Positions 37,458 through 48,372 of a DNA stretch of 48,372 nucleotides are shown piece after piece (positions within the stretch are counted from its first letter, which is position 1; each line of letters opens with the position of its first letter). Both the position numbers and the translations under genes were made by a program. This DNA comes from Oscillospiraceae bacterium (GTDB taxonomy: Bacteria; Bacillota; Clostridia; Oscillospirales; Oscillospiraceae). The stretch is from positions 1-48,372 of the forward strand of contig SVLK01000011.1 of assembly GCA_015067975.1 (NCBI GenBank), written 5' to 3'. The notes under the pieces were generated by a model. That model searched no databases and was not told the DNA's origin. It saw only the letters and a program-made list of their open reading frames with translations.

Positions 37458-37690
37458 GGATGTTTTGCAATGACGTCGCAGGAGTATCTGTTCCTCTCCG
37501 CCACAGAGAGGCGCGCCTTTGGCTGGAAGCGCGCCGCGGCAGAAGCAGAGAAGACAGCGACTGAGCGAAACGCGGGCGCGCCGCCGTTTTGGCGCACGAA
37601 AGGGCATCTTTTGAGATGCTGAATTTGGGTGGCACCACGAAGCATTACGCTCTCGTCCCAATGCAGGGGACGAGAGCGTTTTTTTGTCCC
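37458..37690 (+). ncRNA. T-box leader of hisS-aspS, aspartate-type specifier
   Basis: Stem I is closed by 37475-37479 with 37557-37561; its 5' side has the AGTA motif (37483-37486) and its 3' side carries GAC (37553-37555) followed by A, the specifier position, reading Asp. The T-box GGGTGGCACCACG is at 37627-37639. Its TGGC pairs with a tRNA end GCCA; G is the discriminator of tRNA-Asp, whereas tRNA-His has C. The terminator competing with the antiterminator is at 37647-37685. Uncharged tRNA-Asp should permit transcription of both synthetase genes. The fold was read by eye. This leader fills the 310-base gap before hisS. Confidence 0.88.
37647..37686 (+). terminator. T-box terminator hairpin
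   Basis: ACGCTCTCGTCCC (37647-37659) pairs with the GGGACGAGAGCGT arm (37667-37679), followed by a T run. This is the off state of the leader. Confidence 0.9.
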
Positions 37691-37737: not shown

Positions 37738-39096
37738 ATGGCTAAAATGACTCCGCGCACCCTCTCCGGCTTCATGGAGCTGCTTCCTGCACCGCAGCAG
37801 CAGATGGAACGGATGATGGACATCCTGCGCACCACCTATTCCCGCTACGGCTTTACTCCGTTGGATACCCCCGTCATCGAATCCAGCGAGGTGCTGTTGG
37901 CCAAAGGCGGCGGCGAAACCGAAAAACAGATCTACCGTTTCTCCAAAGGTGATGCCGATCTGAGCCTGCGCTTTGACCTGACGGTGCCTCTGGCCAAGTA
38001 TGTGGCATTGCACTACAACGATCTGGCTTTTCCCTTCCGCCGTTATCAGATCGGCAAGGTCTACCGCGGCGAGCGCGCACAGCGCGGCCGTTTCCGCGAA
38101 TTCTATCAAGCCGACATTGATGTGATCGGCGACGGCAAGCTGGACATTACCAACGAGGCGGAGATCCCCGCCATTATCTACCAAACCTTTTCCGCCCTGG
38201 GTCTGAAGCGTTTCCAGATCCGCGTGAACAACCGTAAGATCCTCAACGGCTTCTATGCCATGCAGGAACTGGCCGAAAAGTCTGGCGACATCATGCGCAC
38301 CGTGGACAAGCTGGACAAAATCGGTCCTCAGAAGGTTCGTGACCTGCTGATCAGCGAAATCGCTTTGAGCGAAACACAGGCCGATGAAATCTTGAAGTTC
38401 ATTGCCATTACAGGCAGCAATTGTGAGGTTCTGAACGCACTGCAGGGTTATGCAGGGAAAAACGAAGTGTTTGACACCGGTCTTTCCGAGTTGAACACTG
38501 TGGTGAAGTATCTGGCCGCTTTCGGTATACCCGAGGAAAACTTTGCCGTGGATCTGACCATTGCCCGCGGCCTTGACTACTATACCGGAACGGTATACGA
38601 AACCACTTTGCTGGACTATCCCGAAATCGGCTCCGTGTGCTCCGGCGGCCGTTACGACAATCTGGCCGAATATTACACCGACCGCCAGCTGCCCGGCGTA
38701 GGCATTTCTATCGGCCTGACCCGCCTGTTCTACGTGTTGGGCGAGCAGGGTCTGCTGAATCCCTCGCTGCCCACCGCCCCGGCCGACGTGCTGATTCTGC
38801 CCATGACCGAAGATCTTGCTCCCGCCATTGCGTTGGCCACTCAGCTACGTCAGAACGGCATTCGCACCCAACTGTACACCGAGCAGAAGAAGTTCAAGGC
38901 CAAGATGAGCTATGCCGATAAACTGGCTATCCCCTATGTGGTATTCCTTGGCGAAGACGAGATCAACGCCGGTGTCGTTGCCTGCAAAGACATGGTCAGT
39001 GGCGAACAAACCAAATTCGGCTTTGACGAAACGCTGCAGCGCATCCGCGTCGGTTTGGCTGAAAAGAATGCCGGCTGCGTGATTCTGGAAAAGTAG
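37738..39096 (+). CDS. hisS: Histidyl-tRNA synthetase
   Basis: 452 residues. A class II synthetase that charges tRNA-His. Motif 2 region YRGERAQRGRFREFYQADID, the histidine-binding ARGLDYYTGTVYE and the motif 3 region PGVGISIGLTRL are visible; the C-terminal anticodon-binding domain begins near residue 345 (ADVLILPMTEDL). AAAGGAG precedes the ATG. It is the first gene after an aspartate-reading T-box and is followed by aspS after 72 bases with no terminator, so both respond to tRNA-Asp charging. Confidence 0.96.
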   Translation: MAKMTPRTLSGFMELLPAPQQQMERMMDILRTTYSRYGFTPLDTPVIESSEVLLAKGGGETEKQIYRFSKGDADLSLRFDLTVPLAKYVALHYNDLAFPFRRYQIGKVYRGERAQRGRFREFYQADIDVIGDGKLDITNEAEIPAIIYQTFSALGLKRFQIRVNNRKILNGFYAMQELAEKSGDIMRTVDKLDKIGPQKVRDLLISEIALSETQADEILKFIAITGSNCEVLNALQGYAGKNEVFDTGLSELNTVVKYLAAFGIPEENFAVDLTIARGLDYYTGTVYETTLLDYPEIGSVCSGGRYDNLAEYYTDRQLPGVGISIGLTRLFYVLGEQGLLNPSLPTAPADVLILPMTEDLAPAIALATQLRQNGIRTQLYTEQKKFKAKMSYADKLAIPYVVFLGEDEINAGVVACKDMVSGEQTKFGFDETLQRIRVGLAEKNAGCVILEK

Positions 39097-39168: not shown

Positions 39169-40944
39169 ATGATGCAATCCCGTACCCATACCTGTGGCGA
39201 GCTGCGTTTAAGCGATGCCGGCAAGCAGGTCAAGATCGTCGGCTGGATGGAAAATGTCCGCGAGGTTGGCAACAACTTTGCCTTCGTCGTACTGCGCGAT
39301 TTTTACGGCACCACCCAGGTGGTTATCGAAAGCGAAGACATGATGGCCGCCATTCACGGTCTGAACAAGGAATCCACCATTTCCGTGGAAGGCGTCGTAC
39401 GCGAGCGTTCCAGCAAGAATGCGAAACTGGCCACCGGTGAGATCGAAGTCGTCCCCACCAAGATTGAAGTGTTGGGCCGCTGCCGTCACAACAGCCTACC
39501 CTTTGAAATCAACCGCTCCCGCGAAGCAGACGAGATGGCACGATTGAAGTACCGCTATCTGGATTTGCGCAATCCCGCCGTGAAGAACAACATCATTCTG
39601 CGCTGCAACGTGGTGGCTGCTCTGCGTCAGGCCATGGCCGAACATGGTTTTTTGGAGATCACCACCCCCATCCTGACCGCCTCTTCTCCCGAGGGTGCCC
39701 GCGACTACCTGGTTCCCGCCCGCAAGCATCCCGGCAAATTCTACGCTCTGCCTCAGGCTCCCCAGCAGTTCAAGCAGTTGCTGATGACCTCCGGCTTCGA
39801 CCGCTATTTCCAGATTGCTCCCTGCTTCCGCGACGAGGACGCCCGCGGCGACCGCAGCCCCGGCGAGTTCTATCAGCTGGATATGGAGATGGCTTTTGCC
39901 ACACAGGATGACGTCTTCGCCGTGCTGGAAGATGTGCTGCCCCCCATCTTCGCCAAGTACGGTACCTATGACATTGCTTCCTCCGCTCCCTTCCGCCGCA
40001 TTCCCTTCAACGAGGCCATGGAAGTTTACGGTTCCGATAAGCCCGACCTGCGCATCGACCTGACGGTACAGGATATCAGTGCCGAAGTGGACGGCTGCGG
40101 CTTTGAACCTTTCGCCGGTCAGACCGTCAAGGCCATCGTTGTCAACAACTGCAAACTGGCACGCAAGGCCATCGATAAGCTGTGCGCCGATGTGGAGATC
40201 CAGTCCGGCAACAAAGCCTACTGGTTCAAGGTAGACGAAAACGGCGAGATCGCCGGCGGCATTGCCAAGTTTATGGCCCCCCTTAAGGATGTGCTGACCG
40301 CCAAGCTGGGTCTGACGCCCGGTTGCTTTGTGGGTGTCACTGCCGGCAAGAAGCTGGCCGCCCAAAAGACCGCCGGCGTGCTGCGCAGCAAGCTGGGTGT
40401 TGCCTGCCCCGAACATATGGATACCGAGCGCTACGAGTTCTGCTGGATCGTGGACTTCCCCATGTACGAGATCGGCGAGGAATCCGGCGAGCTGGAATTC
40501 TGCCACAATCCCTTCTCCATGCCCAGCGGCGGTATGGAAACACTGCTCAAGGCTGAGCGCGGCGAAATCGATCCTCTGGACATTACCGCCGATCAGTACG
40601 ACCTGGTGTGCAACGGTGTCGAACTCAGCTCCGGCGCTGTGCGTAACCACGATCCCGACATCATGATCAAGGCATTTGAGATGGTTCGTCTGGGCGAGGA
40701 AGACGTAAAGGCCAAGTTCCCCGCCATGTACAACGCCTTTACCTACGGCGCACCTCCCCACGCAGGCATCGCTCCCGGCGTAGACCGCATGGTCATGCTG
40801 CTGGCAGGCGAAGCCTCCATCCGCGAGATCATCCCCTTCCCCATGAACAAGAACGCTCAGGACGTGATGATGGACGCTCCCTCTGCCGTAACACAGGCAC
40901 AGCTGGACGAACTGCACATCGCCATCGTGGGCGTGGAGGAATAA
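39169..40944 (+). CDS. aspS: Aspartyl-tRNA synthetase, bacterial type
   Basis: 591 residues. It has an N-terminal OB-fold anticodon-binding domain (about 1-105, VKIVGWMENVREVGNNFAFV), a class II core (YRYLDLRNP; SSPEGARDYLVP; FRDEDARGDRSPGEFYQLDMEM in parts), the bacterial insertion domain (about 290-420) and the motif 3 region APGVDRMVMLLAG. The proper name by family is AspRS; whether it also charges tRNA-Asn cannot be decided here. AAAGGAG lies before the first of two adjacent ATG codons. A strong terminator follows. Confidence 0.96.
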   Translation: MMQSRTHTCGELRLSDAGKQVKIVGWMENVREVGNNFAFVVLRDFYGTTQVVIESEDMMAAIHGLNKESTISVEGVVRERSSKNAKLATGEIEVVPTKIEVLGRCRHNSLPFEINRSREADEMARLKYRYLDLRNPAVKNNIILRCNVVAALRQAMAEHGFLEITTPILTASSPEGARDYLVPARKHPGKFYALPQAPQQFKQLLMTSGFDRYFQIAPCFRDEDARGDRSPGEFYQLDMEMAFATQDDVFAVLEDVLPPIFAKYGTYDIASSAPFRRIPFNEAMEVYGSDKPDLRIDLTVQDISAEVDGCGFEPFAGQTVKAIVVNNCKLARKAIDKLCADVEIQSGNKAYWFKVDENGEIAGGIAKFMAPLKDVLTAKLGLTPGCFVGVTAGKKLAAQKTAGVLRSKLGVACPEHMDTERYEFCWIVDFPMYEIGEESGELEFCHNPFSMPSGGMETLLKAERGEIDPLDITADQYDLVCNGVELSSGAVRNHDPDIMIKAFEMVRLGEEDVKAKFPAMYNAFTYGAPPHAGIAPGVDRMVMLLAGEASIREIIPFPMNKNAQDVMMDAPSAVTQAQLDELHIAIVGVEE

Positions 40945-43790: not shown

Positions 43791-45170
43791 ATGAATACCG
43801 AAAACAAACTGGGTGTCATGCCCATTAACAAGTTGATCTGGAACATGTCGCTGCCCATCATCGCCTCCATGCTGGTACAGGCACTTTACAACATTGTAGA
43901 CAGCATCTTCGTTTCACAGATTGGCGAACAAGCGTTAACCGCTGTATCGCTGGCCTTTCCCGCCCAACAACTGATGATCTCGCTGGCTTCCGGCACCGCT
44001 GTTGGTATCAATGCGCTGACCGGCCGCGCTTTGGGCGCCGGTAATCGCAAACGGGCCAACGATGTCGCCTGCAACGGTTTATTTTTGGCGGTAGTCAGTT
44101 CCTTGGTCTGCTGTGTATTGTGCGCTCTTTTCTCTAATACCTTTTTCTCTGCCCAGACCAAAGTACAGGCCATCATTGACATGGGTAACGAATACCTGTG
44201 GATCGTCGGCTGCTGCTCCGTCGGTGTCTTCGTACAAATCACCTTTGAGCGGCTGCTGCAGTCTACCGGTCGCAGCGTTCTTTCTATGCTTACGCAGGGT
44301 ACCGGCGCCGTGATCAATATTATCCTTGATCCCATTTGCATTTTTGTTCTGGACATGGGCGTAGCAGGAGCCGCATTGGCAACCGTTATCGGCCAGCTTT
44401 GCGGTGCAGCTTTGGCCATTTTCCTCAACCACAAATACAACCAGGATATTCAATTAAATTTCCGGGGCTTCCGGCCTAATCCGCACATCATCGGCGGTAT
44501 TTATGCCATCGGACTTCCTTCGGTAGTTATGATGGCCATTGGCTCGGTGATGACTTTCTTGATGAATAAGATTCTTATCTCCTACCACGAAGCTAAAGAA
44601 ACGGCAGCTACTGCTTTCGGTATCTACTTTAAACTCAACAGCTTCATCTTTATGCCGGTCTTTGGCTTGAACAACGGCTCAGTTTCCATTTTGGCCTATA
44701 ACTATGGCGCCCGCAAACGCCTGCGCATGGAAGAAACGATTAAACGAACTGCACTGTACGCCCTGTGCATCATGACCTTCGGCACGCTGCTGTTTCAGAC
44801 CATACCCCATCTGCTGCTGAAGCTGTTTAATGCCACGGACACATTGTTGACGGTCGGTGTTCCGGCGCTGCGAATTATTTCTCTCAGTTTTCCCTTTGCC
44901 GCCATCTGCATTGCCATGGGCGGATCTTTCCAAGCCACCGGAAAGTCGGTCTACTCCATGATCGTTTCTTTTGTCCGCCAGCTGATTTTCCTGATTCCCG
45001 CCGCCTTTGTACTGGCGCTGATTGGCCGCGAGGCGGGCAACAGCCATCTGGTCTGGTGGTCCTATCCTTTGGCAGAAATCGTTTCGTTGATCATTTCTCT
45101 CATATTCTTTTCCCGCTTGCGAAAAAAAGTTCTCAGCGCCTTACCGGCTAATGGCGAAGATTTTATGTAA
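43791..45170 (+). CDS. MATE family multidrug efflux transporter
   Basis: 459 residues with twelve hydrophobic segments in two repeats, the MATE layout. The N-terminal MPINKLIWNMSLPIIASMLVQALYNIVDSIFV pattern (in pieces) and the loop QSTGRSVLSML, repeated in the second half as QATGKSVYSMI, are typical. It should export cationic compounds using Na+ or H+. AAAGGAAG precedes the ATG. A PHP-domain phosphoesterase gene follows after 15 bases and is probably cotranscribed. The substrate is unknown. Confidence 0.92.
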   Translation: MNTENKLGVMPINKLIWNMSLPIIASMLVQALYNIVDSIFVSQIGEQALTAVSLAFPAQQLMISLASGTAVGINALTGRALGAGNRKRANDVACNGLFLAVVSSLVCCVLCALFSNTFFSAQTKVQAIIDMGNEYLWIVGCCSVGVFVQITFERLLQSTGRSVLSMLTQGTGAVINIILDPICIFVLDMGVAGAALATVIGQLCGAALAIFLNHKYNQDIQLNFRGFRPNPHIIGGIYAIGLPSVVMMAIGSVMTFLMNKILISYHEAKETAATAFGIYFKLNSFIFMPVFGLNNGSVSILAYNYGARKRLRMEETIKRTALYALCIMTFGTLLFQTIPHLLLKLFNATDTLLTVGVPALRIISLSFPFAAICIAMGGSFQATGKSVYSMIVSFVRQLIFLIPAAFVLALIGREAGNSHLVWWSYPLAEIVSLIISLIFFSRLRKKVLSALPANGEDFM

Positions 45171-45185
45171 AGAAGGTTTTTTATA

Positions 45186-46022
45186 ATGATACATTCCGAC
45201 TGGCATATCCACAGCGAGTTTTCCTATGATGCCACGCTTTCTTTGGAAAAAATCGCACTCGATGCCAAATCACACGGTTTTTGTAAAATCGGCATTACCG
45301 ATCACCTGAACTACAATGACGGCCCGTTTTTAAGTGATTTACAAAATTCTGCCACAGCAGTAAAGGCGTTCCAAAAAGAGCATCCTCACGTGGTATTGGG
45401 CGTTGAACTCACCCCTATCGAGCGGCCGGAGTTTGAATATATCGCCAAAACAGGTACCCGCGAAGGTTATATCCCTCCCATCTCTTCCCATCCTTATGGC
45501 ATTGAATTTGCACTGACCAAAGAAGAGCTGATATTCTACGGCGTTAAATTTGCGATCGGAGCCTCTCATTGGCGTGTCGATGTTCCCGACGCACGGCATC
45601 TTCCGGCAGATTTGGACGAGTGCATTGAAGAGTGGTATCGTCAGCAGCTGTGGATGGCCTGCGACGAGCGCGTCACCGTTCTCGGTCACCCTTGGTATCA
45701 CGGTAAGGGCATCTGGTACGAGGACTTTTCCGTTATCCCTCACTCCATGAATATGGATATTGCCGCCGCATTGAAAGAAAACAGAAAATACGCAGAATGC
45801 AATGCTCATTTTTTCTGCACGCAAAGAGCCAGCGAAAAATTCCGGCACCAATATGCCGAATTTTTGAGAGAACTGCATGAGATGGGAATTCCCATCACCT
45901 ACGGCTCCGATGCCCACTCTTCTTACGGCGCCGTTCATCTGAAGGCCGAAGCTTATTTGGCCGCTGCAGGGTTTAAAGACGGAGATATTGTAGAAATCCG
46001 CGAAGAAGATTTTTGGAAATAA
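45186..46022 (+). CDS. PHP-domain phosphoesterase (histidinol-phosphatase-like)
   Basis: 278 residues. The metal-binding residues of the PHP fold appear in order: DWHIHSEFS, ITDHLNY, GVELTP, SSHPYG, GASHW, LGHPWYH and YGSDAHSS. The PHP superfamily includes histidinol phosphatase HisK and other phosphoesterases; there are no histidine genes nearby, so the substrate is open. It lies directly after the MATE gene, an association of unknown meaning. GAAGG precedes the ATG with a T-rich spacer. A bidirectional terminator follows. Confidence 0.88.
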   Translation: MIHSDWHIHSEFSYDATLSLEKIALDAKSHGFCKIGITDHLNYNDGPFLSDLQNSATAVKAFQKEHPHVVLGVELTPIERPEFEYIAKTGTREGYIPPISSHPYGIEFALTKEELIFYGVKFAIGASHWRVDVPDARHLPADLDECIEEWYRQQLWMACDERVTVLGHPWYHGKGIWYEDFSVIPHSMNMDIAAALKENRKYAECNAHFFCTQRASEKFRHQYAEFLRELHEMGIPITYGSDAHSSYGAVHLKAEAYLAAAGFKDGDIVEIREEDFWK

Positions 46023-46075: not shown

Positions 46076-47500
46076 TTAGTAGGCCAGTTTCTCGCGCAGG
46101 TAATCCTTCAGCTCGCTGATGGGGATACGTACCTGTTCCATCGTGTCGCGCTCACGAACGGTAACGCAGTTGTCGCCTTCCTTCTCCGCATCACCCACGG
46201 TATCGAAGTCTACCGTAATGCAGTAAGGCGTGCCGATTTCATCTTCACGGCGGTAACGCTTACCGATAGAGCCGGTCTCATCAAAGTCGATCATCCATTC
46301 CTTGGCCAAATCGGCATAGACTTCGCGGGCTTTTTCGCTCAGCTTCTTGCTCAGGGGCAATACGGCAGCCTTGAAAGGAGCCAGCGCAGGATGGAAATGC
46401 ATCACCACGCGGGTGTCGCCCTTGGCCTCGTCCACCACTTCCTCATCGTAAGCTTCCACCAGGAAGGCCAACACCACGCGGTCAGCACCCAGAGAAGGCT
46501 CCACTACGTAGGGGATGTAGTGCTCGTTGGTCTCGGGATCAAAGTAGGTCATGTCCACGCCCGAGGTATTCTGGTGCTGGGTCAAGTCGTAATCAGTACG
46601 GTCTGCGACGCCCCACAATTCACCCCAGCCGAAGGGGAACATAAACTCAAAGTCCGTGGTGGCCTTGGAGTAGAAGCACAGCTCCTCGGGATCATGGTCA
46701 CGCAGACGCAGGTTCTCGTCGGCCATGTTCAGGCCCAGCAGCCACTGATGGCAGAAGTTGCGCCAATACTGGAACCACTCCAGATCTGTGCCGGGCTTGC
46801 AGAAGAACTCCAGTTCCATCTGCTCGAACTCGCGAGTGCGGAAAGTGAAGTTACCGGGGGTAATTTCGTTGCGGAAAGACTTACCGATCTGGCACACGCC
46901 GAAAGGCAGCTTGCGGCGTGTGGTACGCTGGACATTGTTGAAGTTGACAAAGATGCCCTGTGCTGTTTCGGGGCGCAGATACACCGTGTTCTTGGCATCT
47001 TCCGTAACGCCCTGGAAGGTCTTGAACATCAGGTTAAACTGACGGATATCGGTCCAGTTGTGCTTGCCGCAGCTGGGGCAGGCAATCTGGTGCTCAGCCA
47101 CAAACGCCGCCATTTCCTCCTGAGAGAAGGCATCGATGGGCTTGGGCAGCTCAAAGCCGTTCTCGCCGCACCAGTCTTCGATCACCTTATCGGCACGGAA
47201 GCGCTCTTTGCACTCCTTGCAGTCCATCAGAGGATCGCTGAAGCCGCCCAAATGGCCGGACGCCACCCATGTCTGGGGATTCATAAGGATCGCGCTGTCC
47301 TGACCCACGTTATAGGGGTTCTCCTGCACAAACTTCTTCCACCAAGCCTTCTTCACGTTGTTCTTCAGCTCCACACCCAGAGGGCCGTAGTCCCAGGTGT
47401 TGGCCAGACCACCGTAAATCTCACTGCCGGCGAAGATAAAGCCGCGGTTTTTGCACAGAGCGACGATCTTTTCCATCGTCTTTTCAGTGTTTTTCATCAT
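46076..47500 (-). CDS. glyS: Glycyl-tRNA synthetase, dimeric (class II alpha2) type
   Basis: 474 residues. It charges tRNA-Gly. [17 protein letters not shown] at the N-terminus, a zinc-binding knuckle pair (CKEC and CPSC), FRNEITP and [14 protein letters not shown] (motif 2), and [15 protein letters not shown] (motif 3) are all present, with a C-terminal anticodon-binding domain. It is the single-chain type, not the alpha-beta glyQ/glyS tetramer. AGGAG precedes the first of two ATG codons. It lies 24 bases downstream of a small nucleotidyltransferase gene, and both follow a glycine T-box leader. Confidence 0.95.
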
Positions 47501-47524
47501 GTTGGTTTCTCCTTTTATCTGAAT

Positions 47525-47992
47525 TTATTTGATCTCAAAATAATCCTCAATGGTTTTCACGCGGTCCGCGCGGCCCATCCAGGTATAATACTGATACCAT
47601 GTCTGCACCGAGTGAAGCGAAACCGCCTGATCAAAGACATCCACGCAGCCGTCCACTTCTTCCATCTGCAGGGGGCAAATGTGCTGCTGCCCATCTTCGG
47701 AATTGACTACAAAGCCGGCGATCAAATCGATCTCTACACCATCGACTTCAAACTTTCGATAATGGCGGCTGCCAAACCGGCAATCATCGCCGACCGGCAG
47801 CTGCTTTCCGTGGCGCTGCAGAATCTCCTGCGCTGTGGAAATATCTTCCTCGCATACCAGCAGGTCGATATCCCGGAACTCTCGCACAATGCCACCCAGA
47901 AACAGCATGGCTGATGCGCCTACTGCCCAGAGAATATCGCTCTCGTTCAAATCAGCTGCCAGTACCGAAAGAACCTTCAGTTTCTTTTCCAT
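47525..47992 (-). CDS. Minimal nucleotidyltransferase in the glyS transcript
   Basis: 155 residues, cytoplasmic. The core matches small nucleotidyltransferases: helix with GASAM (G25, S27), acidic pair REFRDIDLLV (D41, D43) and the third acidic residue in DGVEIDLIAG (D89), so the catalytic triad is complete. Relatives include Lnu/ANT-type antibiotic-modifying enzymes and MenT/AbiEii-like enzymes that add nucleotides to tRNA; I cannot choose by eye. GGAGGG lies five bases before the ATG. It is the first gene after the glycine T-box, so its expression should rise when tRNA-Gly is uncharged. That suggests, without proving, a role tied to tRNA-Gly or glycine status. A tryptophan/tyrosine-rich C-terminal tail (TWYQYYTWMGRADR) follows the fold. 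Confidence 0.75.
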   Translation of the reverse strand: MEKKLKVLSVLAADLNESDILWAVGASAMLFLGGIVREFRDIDLLVCEEDISTAQEILQRHGKQLPVGDDCRFGSRHYRKFEVDGVEIDLIAGFVVNSEDGQQHICPLQMEEVDGCVDVFDQAVSLHSVQTWYQYYTWMGRADRVKTIEDYFEIK

Positions 47993-48000
47993 TTTCCCTC

Positions 48001-48180
48001 CAAAAACAAAAACACCCCAAGCTGCCTTGCAGCTCAGGGCGAATCATACGATCCGTGGTTCCACCTGAATTTGGACATTTGTCCACACTCTTGCGCCTTA
48101 ACGCGGCATACGGCGGGCATTTCCTCCCGCGGCTCACGGGGCGCCACCCCCGGTCACAGCCTTTGCTCTTTTGCAAGAAT
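48001..48180 (-). ncRNA. Glycine-type T-box leader
   Basis: On the minus strand, the T-box AGGTGGAACCACGG is at 48053-48066. Its TGGA pairs with a tRNA end UCCA, and U is the discriminator of bacterial tRNA-Gly. A stem I base helix can form between 48173-48180 and 48087-48094, directly beside GGC (48095-48097), the expected Gly specifier in AAGGC context. The antiterminator TCAGG/CCTGA and the terminator at 48015-48039 are mutually exclusive. The leader precedes the nucleotidyltransferase and glyS. The promoter and exact 5' end are unclear. Confidence 0.88.
48003..48039 (-). terminator. T-box terminator hairpin
   Basis: An 11-bp stem (48015-48025 with 48029-48039, including two G-U pairs) is followed on the minus strand by TGTTTTTGTTTTT. 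Confidence 0.85.
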
Positions 48181-48372
48181 AGCATCTTTTCCCCCCTTCG
48201 TCAAGGGGGATTTCCTACAAAACAACGGAAAAAGGACACCCAAATGGGTAATATCACTTAGTTAGTGGCATTACCTGTAGGGTGGCATCCAAAAAAGAAT
48301 GAGTGCATCCGTCGACGGATGCACTCATTCTGCAATTTGGGCATGACAAGTAAGCGGATTGGAAAATCCGCT
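48181..48372. other. Gene-free right end with hairpins
   Basis: No gene is seen. Besides the upstream flank of the T-box, it holds a CCCCC/GGGGG hairpin at 48191-48209, an imperfect composite hairpin at 48234-48290 (outer arms GGACACCC and GGGTGGCATCC; inner arms around GGTAAT and ATTACC) and the palindrome at 48297-48330. Whether the composite hairpin belongs to the leader or is a repeat cannot be told from one copy. Confidence 0.5.
48291..48330 (-). terminator. Perfect palindromic terminator, minus strand
   Basis: A 34-base perfect palindrome (48297-48330) is followed on the minus strand by a T6 run (48291-48296). It should end transcription of a minus-strand gene beyond the right edge. 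Confidence 0.8.

Follow-up and report, generated by a model that had tools for sequence, protein, structure and literature searches.

A candidate ultrashort glycine T-box ahead of a nucleotidyltransferase gene and glyS in a genus of Oscillospiraceae

The 48,372-nt stretch of Oscillospiraceae DNA analysed here (the window) carries an ultrashort glycine T-box leader that probably switches the transcription of a two-gene unit, in which a small nucleotidyltransferase (NTase) gene would be an accessory element inserted between the terminator and glyS. This explanation takes gene order, motifs, covariation, distribution and terminator hairpins directly from the sequence; from these we infer the start site, the switching, the compensation for a lost tRNA contact, the operon read-through, the direction of evolutionary change and the role of the NTase.

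The leader and its two-gene unit

On the minus strand of the window the order is T-box leader, intrinsic terminator, NTase and glyS. The leader extends from Stem I to the antiterminator over positions 48036-48162, and the sequence upstream reads as a promoter, with a -35 box TTGACG (48199-48204) and a -10 box TATTCT (48176-48181). Immediately behind the T run of the terminator lies the ribosome-binding site GGAGG (47997-48001) of the NTase gene, which encodes 155 amino acids (47525-47992). A spacer of 24 nt (47501-47524), with a ribosome-binding site AGGAG inside it, leads to glyS (46076-47500), coding for a glycine--tRNA ligase of 474 amino acids that matches NCBIfam NF003211 with 684 bits against a cut-off of 312 and also exceeds the cut-off of TIGR00389 (glyS_dimeric). 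The initial annotation had located the unit correctly at 47525-48180, and its description of a glycine T-box with a GGC specifier and a TGGA bulge matching U73 of tRNA-Gly, followed by a 155-residue NTase with an intact catalytic set and then by glyS, is borne out in each of these parts; the ultrashort Stem I is a feature absent from it.

Rfam family RF00230 matches the leader at 48032-48166 (minus strand) with 55.7 bits, at E 1.2e-11 when a 393-base stretch is searched and 1.3e-11 in a search of the window's own genome. This score lies below the gathering score of 93 bits, a threshold belonging to a model derived from long T-boxes and not a structural feature, and for this reason a default Rfam scan of the window listed no T-box; the cut-off can miss such ultrashort leaders. 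The same genome-wide search returned 13 matches, six of them above the cut-off. Besides the glyS leader we count 11 credible T-boxes, five of them below the cut-off, a count that drops C14 (26.8 bits, without a proper T-box core) and keeps C38:112971 and C17 (84.1 and 82.6 bits), though a text pattern found no core in these two. All 11 span 203-250 nt, and so large a number of T-boxes points to a Gram-positive host, probably of the Clostridia kind. Our own model R1 gives the window leader 125 bits, the window sequence being one of its training rows.

Stem I occupies about 31 nt (48131-48161) and consists of a basal helix, a K-turn-like UGU bulge with tandem GA, an apical helix of 5 bp and the hexaloop GUGGCG, whose positions 3-5 form the specifier GGC (48143-48145). 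It is followed by a compact Stem II (48113-48130), placed by the alignment and a structure check, with an A-GGAAAU-G apical loop at 48119-48124, and by Stem III (48070-48090), placed by the alignment and flanked by the purines GAGUG ... AA. The antiterminator (48036-48066), delimited by RF00230 and by the covariation alignment, contains the T-box bulge UGGAACC (48057-48063), with UGGA at 48060-48063. Its 3' arm overlaps an intrinsic terminator (48002-48041; -18.0 kcal/mol fold) ending in a T run of 5, so that on sequence both the overlap of the two hairpins and the T run are present.

The cognate tRNA is found in the same genome. An anticodon-arm pattern occurs at seven places, two of which (L069 and L072) were called as tRNA-Gly by ARAGORN; these two are identical in sequence and have a UCCA end. 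The GGC specifier is complementary to the anticodon of this tRNA-Gly(GCC), and the UGGA bulge to its UCCA end, which carries U73.

Conservation and distribution of the ultrashort form

R1 has matches of some kind in all 32 genomes of the genus that were examined, and in 24 of them a match of at least 98 bits at one place per genome. These 24 comprise the 16 R1 training rows, two near-duplicates and six new leaders (G001, G007, G010, G017, G019 and G025). Each precedes glyS, except in G000 and G028, where NTase-glyS follows. In two further genomes (G020 and G030) the leader preceding glyS is long; in the remaining six no glyS was found (G016, G021, G027, G029) or its 3' part only (G005, G023).

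The same elements recur throughout the 24 ultrashort leaders. A promoter-like TTGAC-N-TAnnnT ends 9-16 nt upstream of Stem I in all of them, and Stem I keeps the layout GC-[3 nt]-GA, a helix of 3-6 bp, the hexaloop NYGGCR and GA-GC. The GGC within the hexaloop, the purine 3' of it, the GA on both strands adjoining the 3-nt bulge, the UGG of the bulge and the A-GG[A/C]AAU-G loop of Stem II (for which the alignment displays no internal loop) are each found in 24/24. So is a terminator, its segment folding at -14 to -30 kcal/mol and its T run measuring 5-7. The purine agrees with the literature, where one is described for the position below the specifier.

The helices themselves vary in a compensated manner. 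R1 was built from 16 rows, the near-duplicates L014 and L015 being left out of 18 leaders, and over these 16 distinct rows a 27-pair structure has 98.6% of its cells paired, compared with at most 52% in slid controls. Ten of the 27 pairs change on both sides, a number reached by none of 500 shuffles, and such changes occur in five of the six helices, the sixth being invariant. A count of further standard pair types did not beat its control: the observed 18 compare with a mean of 16.8 after shuffling, and 163 of 500 shuffles gave at least that many. Fifteen of the 27 pairs, including three A1 pairs, never vary and so lend no support. The 16-row alignment misplaces the Stem I of L010 and shifts others by one column, which leaves its Stem I counts on the low side; a separate analysis of the 18 leaders reads each Stem I hairpin directly. 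There, the pair closing the hexaloop is G-C in 11 leaders, C-G in 4 and A-U in 3 (18/18 paired), pairs two to four of the apical helix form in 18, 18 and 17 of 18, and the fifth in only 12 of 17; in G006 the apical helix has only 3 bp. Taking the first four apical pairs over 13 distinct stems, 98% of cells are paired compared with 79% after reshuffling, and none of 5000 reshuffles, which do not keep relatedness, was as high.

This pattern bears on the idea that the leader is a decayed T-box, unresponsive to tRNA and working as a fixed attenuator. The loss of the distal Stem I, a part described as important for transcriptional T-boxes (accessible text of PMC7583486), is what such decay might look like; however, changes on both sides of pairs in five of six helices, together with GGC, UGG and terminator kept in 24/24, are hardly expected of a decayed element, and we regard this reading as improbable.

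The difference between the short leaders and the long ones lies upstream of the T-box core. From promoter to core the 24 short leaders measure 105-114 nt, versus 174-216 nt in 25 of 26 long leaders, those in which a promoter was found. The 26 are the two long leaders of the genus and 24 (L129-L152) inspected in other genera of the family, called glycine-type from a specifier read by eye. A loose text pattern for the double T-loop motif hits between promoter and T-box in none of the 24 ultrashort leaders and is found in all 26 long ones. Both forms share a GGC-type specifier, a UGGN bulge and, mostly, the compact Stem II loop: GG[A/C]AAU is present in 24 of the 26 long leaders too, although its flanking bases vary there. 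A similar Stem II loop is also seen in L091, another T-box of the window's own genome.

A detail of the antiterminator is likewise common to both forms. The base of helix A2 (48056 and 48039, minus strand, in the window leader) reads A and C in 21 of the 24 short and 24 of the 26 long glycine-type leaders, the remainder having G and C. A G-U wobble at this place is described as the aminoacyl sensor (accessible text of PMC7583486), and the A-C pair could mimic it.

Samples of wider taxonomic scope point to a narrow distribution. In a family sample of 300 genomes, 50 had an R1 match with E no higher than 1e-12, six of them of the genus, under stricter filters that lose weak matches; leader type was read at the 24 loci from other genera, all long, and 20 further matches (62-70 bits) lie outside this count. 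A class sample of 391 genomes gave R1 matches above 60 bits in G000 only; the two weaker matches, which come from G119, are leaders of the long type, and in one of them (L178) a long Stem II containing an AGUA stretch takes the place of the compact hairpin. In an order sample a Stem I pattern occurs in 25 of 394 genomes, at 27 places. The three matches in the genus pair over 5 bp and have a T-box core; none of the 24 places outside the genus has a core within 220 nt downstream, and these pair over 0-3 bp, save one with 4 bp (G389) that we take as chance. Within the samples taken, the ultrashort glycine form thus appears to occur in this genus only, and there only with glyS.

Other genera show the long form, which is probably ancestral in the family; from this we infer that the short form is derived. 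Its history may not be one clean deletion. A tree of 36 GlyRS sequences calls for three changes of leader type, two of which well-supported branches make unavoidable, and G006 (short leader, L013) and G020 (long leader, L017) have nearly identical GlyRS, which suggests that recombination may have been involved; these two genomes also form a natural pair for comparing the leader types. A divergent GlyRS clade (G001, G007, G010, G019 and G025, the last entering the tree with 22% of columns; L114, L115, L117, L118, L122) is under the ultrashort leader as well. Replacement of the synthetase under the leader and recombination of the leader may both have occurred.

Proposed mechanism and class placement

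In the mechanism that we propose, transcription would start about 10 nt upstream of Stem I, and the K-turned Stem I hairpin would present the GGC of its hexaloop to the GCC anticodon of tRNA-Gly. The compact Stem II and a probable pseudoknot would come next. After Stem III, the antiterminator would pair its UGGA bulge with the UCCA end of uncharged tRNA-Gly. Held in this way by uncharged tRNA, the antiterminator would let RNA polymerase read through, and with charged tRNA the terminator would be free to form. Most of the genus lacks the distal Stem I and with it the elbow-binding double T-loop; the strong GGC:GCC pairing and the purines of the Stem II loop would probably compensate for the lost elbow contact. 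The strength of the GGC:GCC duplex has been argued to let glycine T-boxes work without Stem II (accessible text of PMC7583486). Elsewhere it is the S-turn that stabilises the codon-anticodon duplex; that the purine loop of Stem II may take this role here is a guess by analogy.

Four T-box classes are distinguished in the literature, and of these class III, exemplified by Nocardia ileS, has a short Stem I without elbow motif, depends on Stem II and presents its specifier in a loop of five or six nucleotides (accessible text of PMC10482949). The present leader resembles the class III leaders of Nocardia farcinica and Mycobacterium ileS, as far as the consulted parts of PMC10482949 and PMC10651847 describe them, in its short K-turned Stem I without double T-loop, its specifier in a hexanucleotide apical loop, the purine 3' of the specifier, and the presence of Stem II, Stem III and a UGGN antiterminator. 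It differs from them in being specific for glycine and not isoleucine, in ending in an intrinsic terminator and not a Shine-Dalgarno sequestrator, and in not belonging to an actinobacterial ileS. Moreover, the Stem II of class III is long and contains an S-turn, whereas here it is a compact hairpin with a GGAAAU-type loop. Since the S-turn Stem II is missing, we call the leader class III-like in its Stem I and do not file it in class III. The translational ileS control that is usual, though not strict, for class III is not seen either.

The other classes fit less well. Class II, represented by Bacillus subtilis glyQS, shares with our leader the glycine specificity, the transcriptional mode and the position ahead of glycyl-tRNA synthetase genes; its Stem I, however, is long and retains the elbow contact, and Stem II is absent (accessible text of PMC10482949), the opposite of the ultrashort leader with its short Stem I and its Stem II. 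The long Stem I with a specifier in an internal loop that marks class I is absent as well.

The likeness of Stem I to the short-Stem-I ileS class (accessible text of PMC10482949) could also mean that the leader acts on translation, as the actinobacterial ileS T-boxes do. However, all 24 leaders have a stable hairpin with 5 T or more behind it. glyS begins 27-94 nt behind the T run in 17 of 24 (distances from a script that gave a false start in G026 and G022 and misread the start in G002), and at 245 and 423 nt, across repeats, in G024 and G003; the NTase of the two genomes that have it there starts at 15-16 nt. Translational action is thus highly improbable, and we favour transcriptional control, a call made from the terminator sequences only.

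The repeats deserve a separate description. In L012, L014, L015 and L016, 244-423 nt of repeat units (CCCCCTCATCC..., CCTTCCCC...) lie between terminator and glyS, and in these four genomes reading by eye finds no evident gene at the T-box/glyS junction. Read-through must there cross 244-423 nt between the T run and glyS.

Taken together, we consider it fairly probable that the genus turned a long glycine T-box into a terminating ultrashort one, which would read tRNA-Gly by its anticodon and 3' end, without the elbow and with the GGAAAU loop replacing the S-turn. If so, co-transcriptional sensing would not depend on the elbow contact where all pairs between codon and anticodon are G-C. Transcriptional T-boxes have been argued to need this contact for the speed of tRNA capture (accessible text of PMC7583486); the 24 genomes here have a terminator and a glycine specifier but not the elbow motif. 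With near relatives carrying the long form, natural pairs are at hand and the limits of co-transcriptional tRNA sensing become testable.

An ultrashort, transcriptional and glycine-specific T-box looks like a new variant. A search of open-licence literature found no paper on one. TBDB mentions leaders with a truncated Stem I, in a supplement (main text of PMC7778990), and classes III and IV are said to act 'mostly' on translation (accessible text of PMC10482949), a wording under which exceptions may already be known.

The nucleotidyltransferase gene behind the terminator

The NTase is recognisable by fold. It matches PDB entries 4hx0, 2fcl and 2ewr at E ~6e-7 as a single sequence and ~1e-14 with a profile, and its AlphaFold2 model has a mean pLDDT of 92.6. 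These entries correspond to TM1012, which we take to be a Thermotoga protein, a relative over nearly the whole length of the NTase whose own function is labelled putative or hypothetical; a literature search for TM1012 papers found none. Residues G25, S27, D41, D43 and D89, invariant in four of four homologues, supply G-x-S, D-x-D and a third D, presumably the nucleotidyltransferase-fold motif, in the TM1012-like arrangement. In Pfam the protein reaches 27 bits with NTP_transf_5 (PF14907; gathering score 31.2) and 17.2 bits with the aminoglycoside-2''-adenylyltransferase model (PF10706; gathering score 21), below the cut-off in both cases. An identity as an AbiEii toxin was rejected, the match being of E 0.0076 over residues 25-85 only, with three homologues lacking it. 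So was the idea that the gene is common in viruses: none of the 352 stretches of viral_contigs that fit a pattern was confirmed, and one phage record is known.

The gene is sparsely distributed. It is present in four of the 32 genus genomes, in just two of which (G000 and G028) it lies under the T-box; in the order sample it occurs in two of 394 genomes, one being G000 (a sample of the same size lists three genus genomes). Outside the T-box setting there are two more homologues in the genus, one in another family of the order, four on plasmid records and one on a phage record, besides one remote homologue. Six of these loci (the three genome loci, two of the four plasmids and the phage) were examined, and they contain no T-box at E 0.01 and, among ORFs or annotations, no synthetase (L176 lies outside that reading). 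The neighbours include, by eye, a recombinase-like gene (L004) and ribosomal S6-like and QueT-like genes (L003) and, as annotated, GNAT, HAD and CAAX-protease genes on a plasmid and DNA invertases on the phage record.

These observations do not support the proposal of the initial annotation that the enzyme acts on tRNA-Gly or on a glycine-related target. As a dedicated member of the T-box regulon, the NTase would modify tRNA-Gly 3' ends or such a target when uncharged tRNA-Gly accumulates. The same gene order in two species with a conserved catalytic set, purifying selection (Ka/Ks 0.10) and, if the T-box works, induction of the NTase under glycine limitation are all in keeping with this. Conservation of the T-box-NTase-glyS order across genomes had been put forward as a check; the order occurs in 2 of the 32 genus genomes, essentially the outcome that speaks against the idea, and on this count we reject a conserved NTase-glyS regulon. 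The six homologue loci without T-box, with no synthetase seen nearby, point the same way, as do a closest solved relative that is an uncharacterised single-domain protein and weak Pfam matches to NTP_transf_5 and an aminoglycoside adenylyltransferase model. We therefore give dedicated membership very little probability.

A nucleotidyltransferase for small molecules, for example an antibiotic, travelling as mobile cargo and placed behind the T-box by chance, is possible at a little under even chances. Pfam Aminoglyc_resit is matched by four of four members (best E 6.9e-6), there is a very weak match to Lnu(D), and mobile cargo would suit both the patchy distribution and the occurrence of homologues on plasmids (four records) and a phage (one record). 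However, the window protein stays below both Pfam cut-offs and far below that of Lnu(D), the resemblance is at the level of the fold, and no resistance context was seen. This reading concerns the enzyme and does not contradict the T-box explanation.

The junction itself argues for an insertion. In G031, whose GlyRS is the nearest relative (98% identical), the T-box lies directly ahead of glyS with 39 nt from T run to start, and no NTase is found at the junction or, at E 1e-5, in the genome. Four other genomes carry the repeats described above at this junction. The NTase-glyS spacers of G000 and G028 are near-identical and resemble the spacer of G014, which has no NTase, and this likeness makes a single insertion behind the terminator, in an ancestor of the two species, likely. 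Between G000 and G028 the NTase has Ka/Ks 0.10 and Ks 1.7 (near saturation), compared with 0.028 and 0.68 for glyS, so the NTase appears to be kept and to evolve faster; given that faster evolution, two separate insertions are not strictly excluded. We conclude from the sequence comparisons that the NTase is an accessory gene which came to lie under the T-box opportunistically; by virtue of its position it would be induced along with glyS. Beyond this the gene matters little, other than in suggesting that new DNA can enter at the junction that follows a T-box terminator. Hypothetical genes under glycine T-boxes, such as EF2480 and spr1331 (accessible text of PMC2494555), are alike in being uncharacterised genes of a glycine T-box unit, a likeness of T-box setting and not of compared proteins.

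Three further features surround the unit. A strong inverted repeat (GAATGAGTGCATCCGTC/GACGGATGCACTCATTC) at 48282-48349, upstream of the leader and near the contig end, has only weak Rfam matches, far below their cut-offs. Convergent with glyS, positions 43791-46022 (plus strand) code for a MatE-family transporter and a PHP-domain protein. A second T-box of the window (37461-37663, plus strand; 80.9 bits, bulge UGGC) precedes ORFs that read by eye as hisS (37738-39096) and aspS (39169-40944).
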